Assembly: GCA_024645145.1 (NCBI GenBank)
Contig: JAHEGL010000027.1
Span: forward strand, 1-17,844
Reading direction: 5' to 3'
From: Planktotalea sp.
Lineage (GTDB): Bacteria; Pseudomonadota; Alphaproteobacteria; Rhodobacterales; Rhodobacteraceae
DNA: 17,844 nt
Shown here: positions 2,302-7,991 of the stretch, piece by piece
Numbering within the stretch: position 1 is the stretch's first letter
Layout of the letters: each line of letters starts with the position of its first letter
Made by a program: the position numbers and the translations under genes
The notes under the pieces: generated by a model
Told to the model about the DNA's origin: nothing
The model's input: only the letters and a program-made list of their open reading frames with translations
Database searches by the model: none

Positions 2302-2372
2302 AATTTCATGCTTATGAGCGATGAGAAGCGCAGCGGTGGGTTGAAAGGAAATTTGTGAGAAAATTTCATGCT
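2302..2372 (+). repeat. Exact 11-bp direct repeat flanking a GTG start
   Basis: AATTTCATGCT occurs at 2302-2312 and again at 2362-2372, 60 bp apart. The first copy lies in the 95-bp gap between the divergent GyrI-like and membrane-protein genes. The second lies inside the first codons of the membrane-protein gene, just after its GTG start. It could be a pair of operator half sites or chance; nothing else supports a function. Confidence 0.3.
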
Positions 2373-3341
2373 GTTTCGTTCGTAGTGTTTTTAAGCGTGT
2401 CGTCGGTTTTTGGGTCGATCGCATCGGCGCTGTGCGAAGAAAAACGCGCCTTCGATCAAGTGCGCATACAAACCACCGCGTTTTTTTTGACAGGTGCTCC
2501 GCTGAGTGAAACGCAAAACAGACTTCTAGGGCGCGGACTCTCACGACTAAATCTATTGACCATCTTTCCTGTTTTGGCAGCCAACAACCAAACCATACAT
2601 GCGCCGTTCTTGAACCGAATCCTTGATGAGTTTGCGGTCCTGCAGCTTTCAGGACGTCGCAACGCGCAGGTGCTAAGCGTGCGAAATATAGAAAAAGCAG
2701 CGCAAATATTTGAAGAGCTTTGCATAAGTCCTCAATTGATAAATCAGGCGTCTATAGGCGTGAATAAACGGCTCATTCTTGAGCGGTTTGATTTCAATTT
2801 CACAAATCCATTTCGCGGCTGGACGGGTGCTGATGCAAGGTCCTACTTCAACCTTTCACTCGTGTTTTTTGTGTTGCTTGGCTTGATCAGTTTGATTGTG
2901 TTCCTTTGGAAGGCCTATGTGCTGGCCTTCCCTTTCTTGGACAACAGAAGATACTGCAAAATTCCGGCTGTCCTATTTGTAAGACACATAGAAATCGCAG
3001 GGCACATTAGCATTTTAGGGTCATCCGCCGCGCGCTTCGTTCCGCTTCATGGCAGTTTGGAAATTGATGTTTTGGACGTGAAAGCAGCACCGGGAAATAT
3101 GCGACTGGTTGTCGGAACGCGAGAGTTTTCGGCCTCTTTGCAGAACTCTGTGAGTGAGTTCAGCATCATTACTTTTAGCGACAAACTCGATCGCAAAATC
3201 ATGAATGAGCTCTATCTGACGTCGGAAATTCAAACATGGTTTGCGTCAAACGCTGTGATGGTATCATCGCTAAAACCGAAAAGTAATGAAAAGCGTCCCA
3301 ATCAGGCTGGTCTTAAAACGCGAAAAGCCCCCGCCCTGTAG
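2355..3341 (+). CDS. Exported single-span membrane protein with possible PilZ-like C-terminus
   Basis: 328 residues from a GTG start preceded by AAAGGA (about 6 nt spacing). The N-terminus is a signal peptide ending near IASA at residue 25. Residues 26-165 would be periplasmic, a hydrophobic span covers about 167-192 (LSLVFFVLLGLISLIVFLW), and residues 198-328 would be cytoplasmic. The cytoplasmic part begins RRYCKIP and continues with HISILGSSAARF. This spacing recalls the RxxxR and D/NxSxxG motifs of PilZ c-di-GMP receptors, but the second arginine is Lys and the aspartate is absent, so binding of c-di-GMP is doubtful. I cannot name the gene. The coding sequence is more A+T-rich than its neighbours and contains a run of eight T at 2481-2488. 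Its stop codon lies in the loop of the hairpin assigned to ccrM. Confidence 0.7.
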   Translation: MRKFHAVSFVVFLSVSSVFGSIASALCEEKRAFDQVRIQTTAFFLTGAPLSETQNRLLGRGLSRLNLLTIFPVLAANNQTIHAPFLNRILDEFAVLQLSGRRNAQVLSVRNIEKAAQIFEELCISPQLINQASIGVNKRLILERFDFNFTNPFRGWTGADARSYFNLSLVFFVLLGLISLIVFLWKAYVLAFPFLDNRRYCKIPAVLFVRHIEIAGHISILGSSAARFVPLHGSLEIDVLDVKAAPGNMRLVVGTREFSASLQNSVSEFSIITFSDKLDRKIMNELYLTSEIQTWFASNAVMVSSLKPKSNEKRPNQAGLKTRKAPAL

Positions 3342-6358: not shown

Positions 6359-6856
6359 TTAGTGACGGCCGCGGTGGTGGCGTGGACCGTGTGGATGCTT
6401 GTGACCATGGCCATTGCCGTGACGGTGCCATTCATTTGCACGCTGATTGTTGTGGGCACGTTGTTGGCGGTGACCGTTATGTCCGTTGCGCACGCCATGA
6501 CCACGGCGGTCATTGTCGTACCAATTGTTGCGATGGGAGCGCTGCGCGTTTTGATGTCTGGAACCGTGTCCACGCTTATGCGCTTTTTGCTTATTATGGG
6601 TCACTTGTGGCCGCGCATAGTCTTTTTCTTTGCGATGATTTTTACTGGACCGCTTCTTGTTGTTTTCGATTGCTTTACCGACAATCACCAAAGCAGCGAT
6701 CCCAGCAATGGTTGCAGCAACTGGATCGACATGGGTTTGAGAGCGTGGCTGGGGTGCTGGCACATAGCGGTATTCACCCGCTTGAGCCATGCTCGATGTA
6801 ATGCCTGTGAAAGCGAGAGCCGTTGCGACAACTGTAGAAATAAAAGCACGATGCAT
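6359..6856 (-). CDS. Histidine-rich exported protein
   Basis: 165 residues. A signal peptide (cleavage likely after AQA at residue 26) is followed by a short GEYRYVPAPQPR segment and then a hydrophobic stretch (about 44-63, DPVAATIAGIAALVIVGKAI) that could be a membrane anchor. Residues 74-165 hold 19 histidines mixed with Arg, Asn, Gly and Lys, ending HHRGRH, with repeats such as GHGHKHPHG and NGHNGH. The composition suggests binding of a transition metal (Ni, Zn, Cu or Co) in the periplasm, but this is inferred from composition only. ATG 6856 has AGGA eight nt upstream. Its leader carries large inverted repeats (6859-6941). It is divergent from the small periplasmic protein and membrane wHTH pair. 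I do not recognise a characterised family. Confidence 0.75.
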   Translation of the reverse strand: MHRAFISTVVATALAFTGITSSMAQAGEYRYVPAPQPRSQTHVDPVAATIAGIAALVIVGKAIENNKKRSSKNHRKEKDYARPQVTHNKQKAHKRGHGSRHQNAQRSHRNNWYDNDRRGHGVRNGHNGHRQQRAHNNQRANEWHRHGNGHGHKHPHGPRHHRGRH

Positions 6857-6858
6857 GT

Positions 6859-6941
6859 GTTTGATCCTGACTTGGTTGGTGCCTGCCAGTGATTGGCGGG
6901 CTTGATGGGATCAAACTGGGGGCAACCCGCTTTGGCAGGCA
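6859..6941 (-). promoter_or_regulatory. Structured 5' leader with possible ribosome-site sequestration
   Basis: Upstream of the histidine-rich gene three stems are nested: TGCCTGCCA/TGGCAGGCA (6880-6888 with 6933-6941, 9 bp), GCGGG/CCCGC (6896-6900 with 6926-6930), and TTGAT/ATCAA around GGG (6902-6906 with 6910-6914). In addition GGATCAAAC at 6908-6916 is the exact reverse complement of GTTTGATCC at 6859-6867, which in the transcript contains the AGGA ribosome site and the spacer before the start codon. Pairing of the inner arm with its hairpin partner or with the ribosome site is mutually exclusive. This layout fits a translational switch. A protein-binding operator is an alternative. The match to any known riboswitch class was not established. 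Confidence 0.5.
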
Positions 6942-7026
6942 ATATCATCGCATTGTTATCGAATAGCAGTCCTCTAAACACCCAATGTTATTGAAAAACA
7001 TCGCTGCACGGCGCATTTAGGGTGTC

Positions 7027-7266
7027 ATGAAGCATTGTATCACACCCCTAGTCCTGGCCAGCGCGCTTTCGCTTTTTGCAAGCGCTGCTTTGGCTGACTG
7101 TACCGCGGTTTATAAGGCCAAGCAGGACAACCCTTTGCGCCTTGAACAAAGCTCGATCACTGTATCTGGCCCTTGCACGATTGCGGCTGCAGAGGCGATA
7201 GTAAAAGCAGAACTGGCTGCAAAAGGCTGGACATTGCTGAAGGTTTTGTCAGTCTCCGAGAGCTAA
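7027..7266 (+). CDS. Small periplasmic protein, unknown function
   Basis: 79 residues with a clear Sec signal peptide (MKHCITPLVLASALSLFASA, cleavage after ALA at residue 23), giving a mature protein of 56 residues. The mature part starts DCTAVYKAKQDNPLRL, contains a second cysteine in SGPCTIAAAEA that may pair with the first, and ends GWTLLKVLSVSES. This pattern resembles small conserved exported proteins that I recall from roseobacters, none with an assigned role. A short AGGG sits just before the ATG. The stop is 14 nt before the start of the membrane wHTH gene, so the two are very likely one operon. Confidence 0.7.
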   Translation: MKHCITPLVLASALSLFASAALADCTAVYKAKQDNPLRLEQSSITVSGPCTIAAAEAIVKAELAAKGWTLLKVLSVSES

Positions 7267-7280
7267 GCAGGAGATCGATT

Positions 7281-7991
7281 TTGCAAGACGAACCAGCAAC
7301 AGCAACAGCGGCCGCATCGCGGCGGACAGGTAATCGGATCGTCGTCATTGGTTTGGCGGCGATTGTTGGTATTTTGTTGATCGCAGCGATCATCTTATTT
7401 GCGACCCTGCCAGATGCGAATGCGTTTAATCTGCGGGTGGAACAGATCTTTGTCGAGAATGATGATCTGAGCAGTCAGGCTGAGATCAAGCTGCTTGAAA
7501 TTTTGGCACAATCAGGCACGTCGTTTTCAGAAACTCTTGCGTCATACCGTTTCGTAATTTTCGTTTTGCTGCTTTTTGCGACGTCATTGCTTATCGCGGC
7601 AGTTGTGTTTTTGGTGATGCTGATCGTGTTAAACCGCCGAATGGCGCAAATTGAACGTTCGGGGATTCAAGTGTCTTCGCTTTTGATCTCGCGTGAGGAG
7701 AAGACGGTCTACCTCAACAACATGGGTTTCAAGCTGACGGACGCCGCGATGGAGACTTTGTCGGTTTTGGCCGAGGCTCGCATGGATGACGAAGTGATGA
7801 CCGGCGTTGAGATAGAAGCTGTCATTTCTGGGCGTAGCAGCACAGATTGCGAAGAAGCAGCGGGTGCGACGCGGATTAAGCGGTTGCGAGACGGGCTTGG
7901 CAATCAGATGGTGAGTGAGCTGTTGGTGAAGAACATCGCGCGCAAAGGATATATGCTCGCGATTGATAAGGACGTCATTAAAGTTCTTTAA
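7281..7991 (+). CDS. Two-span membrane protein with OmpR-like winged-helix C-terminal domain
   Basis: 236 residues from TTG 7281, chosen because AGGAG (7269-7273) stands 7 nt upstream. The longer frame from 7173 would overlap the preceding gene by 94 nt. The N-terminus is short and basic (RRTGNR), TM1 is about 20-42, a loop of about 48 residues follows (43-90), TM2 is about 91-117, and NRR comes next. By the positive-inside rule both termini are cytoplasmic. Residues about 138-229 resemble an OmpR/PhoB trans_reg_C winged helix: KLTDAAMETLSVLAEA, then TRIKRLRDGLG as recognition helix, then NIARKGYMLAID as the wing hairpin. A DNA-binding domain placed C-terminal to two spans differs from ToxR/CadC, where it is N-terminal. 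The fold call is made by eye and moderately sure. It probably senses something through the periplasmic loop, perhaps with the small exported protein encoded just upstream. Confidence 0.65.
   Translation: MQDEPATATAAASRRTGNRIVVIGLAAIVGILLIAAIILFATLPDANAFNLRVEQIFVENDDLSSQAEIKLLEILAQSGTSFSETLASYRFVIFVLLLFATSLLIAAVVFLVMLIVLNRRMAQIERSGIQVSSLLISREEKTVYLNNMGFKLTDAAMETLSVLAEARMDDEVMTGVEIEAVISGRSSTDCEEAAGATRIKRLRDGLGNQMVSELLVKNIARKGYMLAIDKDVIKVL

Follow-up and report, generated by a model that had tools for sequence, protein, structure and literature searches.

A putative divergent, operator-controlled promoter in Rhodobacteraceae and its complementarity to the ribosome-binding region of the gene it would drive

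The region studied here lies in a 17,844-nt stretch of Planktotalea sp. DNA (the window, taken at its full length), between a leftward gene for a histidine-rich exported protein and two rightward genes, and it appears to be a divergent, operator-controlled promoter, not the leader of a riboswitch. A segment of the leftward promoter that ends at the predicted transcription start is complementary to the Shine-Dalgarno (SD) region of the gene; judging from the loci compared, this complementarity is conserved in the family and is not an accident of one genome. Our preferred reading, which we hold at about even chances, is that the segment is an arm that hides the SD of read-through RNA (fold-back inhibition). 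The leftward promoter, with its putative +1 at position 6906, is well supported by the family alignment and stands more firmly than this insulating function, for which the balance is close to level.

Locus layout, operator-like sites and promoters

The histidine-rich gene diverges from the genes at 7027-7266 and 7281-7991, with the following elements in and around the interval.

6359 to 6856, minus strand: gene for a His-rich exported protein of 165 aa (open reading frame)
6857 to 6906, minus strand: predicted 50-nt 5' UTR of the His-rich gene, putative +1 at A6906 (conserved CA start)
6913 to 6918, minus strand: putative -10 element CAGTTT of the His-rich gene (A27 and T31 conserved)
6937 to 6942, minus strand: putative -35 element TTGCCT, overlapping O3 (profile of 101 loci)
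6934 to 6946, no strand assigned: operator-like site O3, consensus GnTATTGCCTGtC read on the minus strand (profile)
6955 to 6967, no strand assigned: operator-like site O2, consensus GTTATCnGATAAC (profile)
6987 to 6999, no strand assigned: operator-like site O1, consensus GTTATTGAATAnC, in the window GTTATTGAAAAAC (profile)
6991 to 7019, plus strand: candidate small-gene promoter, -35 TTGAAA at 6991-6996, 17 bp, -10 CATTTA at 7014-7019 (family profile)
7027 to 7266, plus strand: gene for an exported 79-aa protein, probably leaderless (ATG-to-O1 spacing in 100 loci)
7281 to 7991, plus strand: gene for a 236-aa membrane protein with a probable C-terminal winged helix, likely the regulator (conservation and Trans_reg_C matches)

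The 165-aa product of 6359-6856 is 12.7% His and has a signal-like start, as judged by eye; Pfam gave nothing above cutoff for it. Its homologues sit behind the same promoter in other loci, and most of them are not His-rich (median 4.4% His, with 14 of 100 at 10% or above). At least three Cys after residue 30 are found in 72 of the 100 homologues and in none of six Planktotalea products, and the protein of the window carries a His-rich tail in place of the Cys-containing C-terminal part typical of most homologues. A 328-aa reading frame elsewhere in the window (2355-3341, plus strand) matched nothing in Pfam at E values up to 0.1.

When positions 6845-7040 were searched as DNA against 394 genomes of the family, the matches outside the genus at E<=0.001 all stopped at or before window position 6901, short of the SD; at the level of sequence, the conserved part is a set of short sites with a promoter stretch and not the whole leader. 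The 115 upstream regions were reduced to 102 by dropping 12 duplicates and one with too little upstream sequence, and 101 of the 102 outscore a shuffled control. Leaving out L109 and one other low-scoring locus gave a set of 100. The alignment of 101 regions shows GTTATCnGATAACA, then GnTATTGCCTGtC, then CCCAnnTT and CA. O1 is present at 9 or more of 11 matches in all 100 loci examined, and the distance between the outer sites is 33 bp in seven loci, 42-44 bp in 66 and 53-54 bp in 27. These distances are whole helical turns, as expected for proteins bound on one face of the DNA.

The leftward promoter is numbered here from the T of TATTG (position 1, window position 6944, minus strand). TTGCCT at 2-7 and CAnnTT at 26-31, with 18 bp between them, have the form of a -35/-10 pair. 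A27 and T31, the most important bases of a -10, are conserved in 95% and 93% of 74 dereplicated loci and in 90% and 83% of 94 independent ones, and A38 of the CA start, 7 nt past T31, in 86% of the former and 73% of the latter. The -10 of the window (CAGTTT) shares two of six bases with the E. coli consensus, and a scan of 6500-7300 for E. coli-type promoters found none. In the available text of PMC8407463, more than 60% of R. sphaeroides -10 elements are reported to lack T at -7, which makes the conserved T31 notable.

The rightward promoter has a similar profile, in which GTTATTGAATAnC carries TTGAAT and is followed after 17 bp by CAnnnT. The latter lies at O1+27 to O1+32, with the A in 93% and the T in 92% of 100 loci; the CATTTA of the window is missing the final T. 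Since the ATG stands 39 nt from the start of O1 in 56 of 100 loci and 40 nt from it in another 33 (together 89), the small gene looks leaderless. Both divergent promoters have the same layout, with the ATG of the small gene at the expected start.

Inverted repeats and the 9-nt complement in the window

The minus strand of the promoter and leader holds three nested repeats and two complementary segments.

6941-6933 / 6888-6880, minus strand: outer repeat, 9 bp, TGCCTGCCA / TGGCAGGCA
6930-6926 / 6900-6896, minus strand: middle repeat, 5 bp, GCGGG / CCCGC
6914-6910 / 6906-6902, minus strand: inner repeat, 5 bp, TTGAT / ATCAA
6908 to 6916, minus strand: anti-SD segment GTTTGATCC, overlapping the -10 and before the putative +1 (exact 9-nt complement of 6859-6867)
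6859 to 6867, minus strand: SD-side segment GGATCAAAC, with the SD core AGGA at 6868-6865 (covaries with the promoter segment)

A preliminary description of this DNA had pointed out three nested inverted repeats (9, 5 and 5 bp), and positions computed by script place them where it did, on the minus strand; the 9-nt complementarity that it gave for 6908-6916 and 6859-6867 is exact. Both features are real and are unlikely to have a chance origin. Shuffling the 86-nt stretch 2000 times with dinucleotides preserved gave 28 sequences with a perfect repeat of at least 9 and three with two or more 9-mer matches, as in the window. The RNA of 6840-6945 folds with z = -2.46 (2 of 200 shuffles are equally good), and its minimum-energy fold contains the outer and middle stems and not the anti-SD/SD pairing.

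Across six Planktotalea sequences, the outer stem keeps 9, 8, 7, 9, 9 and 6 of its 9 pairs and the middle stem 5, 4, 3, 4, 4 and 1 of its 5, and no two-sided compensatory changes are seen in either stem among the six; inner TTGAT/ATCAA is the sole repeat kept in all of them. The view of the nested stems as a conserved, functional fold was rejected because the genus does not preserve the outer and middle ones. The same loss tells against the stems themselves being a protein operator, as do the arm/SD pairs, which vary between loci both in sequence and in distance (5' UTR of 41-78 nt). We regard such an operator as very unlikely, even though the inverted repeats adjoin the operator-like sites and the outer 5' arm overlaps O3.

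Rfam gave no match at the gathering threshold in the whole window and none at E<=1 in 6700-7100, and the preliminary description could not match it to a known riboswitch class. The further suggestion of a metal-responsive RNA drew on the product, which is indeed His-rich in this genome; it is not supported, given the missing Rfam match, stems that are not maintained, homologues that are mostly not His-rich and the position of the region inside a putative promoter, and we consider it scarcely credible. A metal riboswitch or other known RNA family was set aside, on the Rfam result and because His-richness is not general.

With the +1 at 6906, the transcript of the gene should contain the 3' arms of the three repeats but neither their 5' arms nor the anti-SD segment 6908-6916, all of which would lie upstream of it. 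The preliminary description had named a start downstream of the stems as evidence against its reading, and the promoter profile places the putative start there. Its idea of a switch, in which the inner segment competes for the ribosome-binding site, fares better in one respect, since the complement covaries with the SD region family-wide, and worse in another, since the arm lies upstream of the putative +1. Because the arm ends at that start, transcripts begun there would be without it and transcripts from further upstream would carry it.

Covariation of the promoter segment with the SD region

Loci were taken as usable when an ATG behind an SD-like word lay at least 38 nt after the +1, which left 94 of the 100 loci, and 74 after dereplication of near-duplicates. 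A new set came from 128 loci that form part of the 315 regulator-carrying genomes; five loci without the operator were left out, and of the remaining 123 the same steps kept 107 and then 94, unlike the first set and unlike each other. In a swap test, the pairing of the stretch before the +1 with the SD region within loci was compared with that between loci.

In the 74 loci, the mean Watson-Crick run is 4.27 for native and 3.66 for swapped partners (0 of 2000 swaps), with controls at z 1.7 (complement without reversal), 1.4 (reverse) and 0.8 (same-strand match); without Planktotalea (72 loci) the test gives z 5.2. In the 94 new loci, z is 3.3 for runs (3 of 5000) and 4.5 for duplex energy (0 of 5000), with complement alone at 1.6. 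An intended control window, 14-25, proved positive in this second set (z 5.8), as four other control windows did not, and the arm was then widened from 26-37 to 12-37. The interim reading of a promoter only, with the complement as a chance match, was dropped once swap tests proved positive. A window scan over 168 loci shows a single block, promoter positions 12-41 against the SD and start codon, above a background whose z has a median of 0.8 and a spread of 1.2; overlap between windows accounts for at least part of a second peak, at 42-53. An inner pairing of 42-54 with -40 to -19 (p=5.6e-9) was discarded since the windows overlap in short leaders and non-overlapping windows give p=0.061.

Because related loci inherit chance pairs, partners were also exchanged between near relatives, with 201 loci paired by neighbouring gene and native compared with exchanged partners. 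The signal persists for 12-37 against SD positions -25 to +3 (p=2.2e-6, 89 pairs), for 26-37 (p=4.3e-7, 88 pairs) and for 12-25 (p=0.0021), and with the SD narrowed to -18 to -3 the 26-37 test falls to p=0.011, or to p=0.0043 when runs are scored. In the same test there is no signal for transcribed 38-50 (p=0.98), upstream -14 to 11 (p=0.8) and -40 to -15 (p=0.12), coding +4 to 30 (p=0.62) or complement without reversal (p=0.58), nor in controls with the SD of the regulator gene (p=0.19), direct-repeat orientation (p=0.73) or a shuffled segment (p=0.47); reversing the promoter segment gives a nominally positive result (p=0.042). Sixteen 12-nt windows place the signal between 8-19 and 32-43 (p from 0.039 to 5.1e-6); at 36-47 it has disappeared (p=0.42), and an isolated positive window stands at -4 to 7 (p=0.007). 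The covariation is confined to one block and stops at the putative +1. The complementary pairs differ by locus, for example TTTGATCC/GGATCAAA, ATTCCTTTC/GAAAGGAAT, TCGGTCC/GGACCGA and TTCGTGA/TCACGAA, and the distance between arm and SD is variable, with 5' UTRs of 41-78 nt (5th to 95th percentile).

Covariation of the arm with the SD, and its reach back to about 8-19, would also suit a leader switch, in which transcription starts near 6932 or before and an anti-SD hairpin in the main mRNA acts as a thermometer-like or protein-controlled gate. This is improbable in our estimation: A27, T31, C37 and A38 stand at promoter spacing and match the layout of the divergent promoter, the G+C-rich -35/-10 spacer shows no further conservation of -10 type, and no Rfam family corresponds.

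The effect itself is moderate. Duplexes of -9 kcal/mol or better occur in 70 of 201 loci against 41.4 expected, and the SD is unpaired with a mean probability of 0.483 when the promoter segment is native, 0.530 when it is foreign and 0.579 when it is left out. In the window, SD accessibility is 0.25 for the long and 0.39 for the short RNA in one set-up and 0.25 and 0.26 with other transcript ends, the difference depending on the ends chosen because other pairings compete. In strand tests, sense and antisense energies fit equally well, and G-U and A-C mismatches are equal in number (18 and 18), which leaves room for an origin at the level of DNA or mutation. A promoter with operators and nothing more, its complementarity a functionless product of a mutational process (such as template switching at a promoter stretch that is often melted) or of residual relatedness, is a serious alternative, though on the unlikely side. 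The indifference of the strand tests, the moderate effect, the small general positive background and the one nominally positive control all agree with it; a signal that sits in one block, ends at the putative +1 and survives near-relative exchange does not.

Proposed mechanism, known systems and the candidate regulator

Under the reading that we prefer, the O1-O2-O3 array would control two promoters, the leftward one (+1 at about 6906) driving the exported His-rich protein and the rightward one driving the small gene and probably the regulator gene as well. The membrane-anchored winged-helix protein of 7281-7991 probably binds the array. The leftward promoter would also serve as the anti-SD arm, from its -35/-10 spacer up to the last base ahead of the +1. 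RNA started at the leftward promoter would be without the arm and translatable, and RNA entering from upstream would carry it and could hide its own SD; the read-through RNA and the effect on translation are both presumed here. The simplest guess for the upstream RNA guarded against is that it starts on the side of the small gene, by divergent or antisense initiation. More tentatively, and with somewhat less confidence than we give to the mechanism at this locus, the family may use its own promoter as a translational insulator: the segment from spacer to discriminator would coevolve with the SD of the gene driven, messages would be well translated only if started there under a dedicated membrane-bound winged-helix regulator, and stray, antisense-derived or divergent transcripts would silence themselves. 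If this is true, selection could act on -10 and discriminator sequences for an RNA pairing in which their own transcript takes no part, and genes shielded from transcriptional noise could be found from sequence alone.

Phage genes and a transposon, whose untimely expression does harm, provide known cases of fold-back inhibition. In the IS10/Tn10 transposase gene, read-through RNA hides the SD and native RNA does not; that system belongs to a mobile element and takes its arm from the end of the element, unlike the present one. For T4 gene e, the available portions of the sources describe long early RNAs in which the SD is hidden, and free RNAs that come from late promoters in the 5'-strand region (PMC3014915, PMC2988022). 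As far as those portions go, the inhibitory leaders of T4 gene e (lysozyme), I-TevI and Aeh1 mobE have, as here, an upstream strand complementary to the SD/start region, and a promoter in the 5'-strand region gives a proper transcript without the strand. The present locus has such a strand, by its 9-nt complement and covariation; a promoter inside the arm region is suggested by the conserved -10 and CA, which would put the +1 at 6906, and the consensus scan was negative. In contrast to those leaders, this one belongs to a chromosomal gene of a bacterial family, its start site, its upstream transcripts and its function are putative, and it pairs less strongly, in some loci without a clear duplex. 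The mechanism, if real here, is already known in phages. Searches of open-licence literature found no chromosomal, family-wide form with promoter/SD coevolution, nothing on read-through with internal promoters, and no paper on the regulator or the operator array.

The protein of 7281-7991 was found in 315 of 394 genomes of the family (E<=1e-30), and a profile search of 240 genomes across the class gave three matches; all three genomes belong to the same family, and one is that of the window. The protein appears to be family-restricted. A homologue of 62-78% identity lies near the sites in 22 of 23 loci of other genera whose match covers the sites; the fetched stretch of the remaining one (L010) holds none, and that genome has a copy elsewhere. 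Its position and its co-occurrence with the sites make it the likely regulator of the array, and the locus offers a testable, family-restricted membrane regulator together with an operator array.

A C-terminal winged helix is probable for this protein. Among the best 120 matches listed, the source names include winged helix-turn-helix, OmpR/PhoB-type protein and hypothetical protein, and Pfam Trans_reg_C matches 27 of 28 members at E<=0.01 (best 8.7e-5); the window copy scores 16.8 bits against a curated cutoff of 26.2. The match covers residues 151-226 of 236 and is preceded by two hydrophobic segments, as seen by eye in the alignment. An AlphaFold model is poor (pLDDT 61.8), and sequence search found no solved structural relative. 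ToxR-like proteins run from an N-terminal winged helix through one membrane segment to a periplasmic C-terminus. The protein of the window has the reverse order, its probable winged helix being C-terminal after two hydrophobic segments. What it would have in common with ToxR/CadC-type regulators, described in the available text of PMC5430869 as membrane proteins with an OmpR-type winged helix, is the membrane location and the probable winged helix of that type.

A search for the operator with its proper spacing found it in 17 of 120 genomes, one site in each. Single operator-like palindromes were seen away from the regulator gene in L262 (site 1982), L268 (site 2015), L263 and L269. Those of L262, L268 and L263 lie 50-160 bp before genes whose products resemble, by eye, glycine-zipper lipoproteins or envelope proteins, and that of L269 lies 50-160 bp before a gene for a product that by eye is curlin-like; an envelope regulon is possible. 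In L254 we further note a second composite operator (site 2008), more than 400 kb from the regulator gene of that genome and close before a gene whose product resembles, by eye, a MeaB/ArgK-type GTPase.
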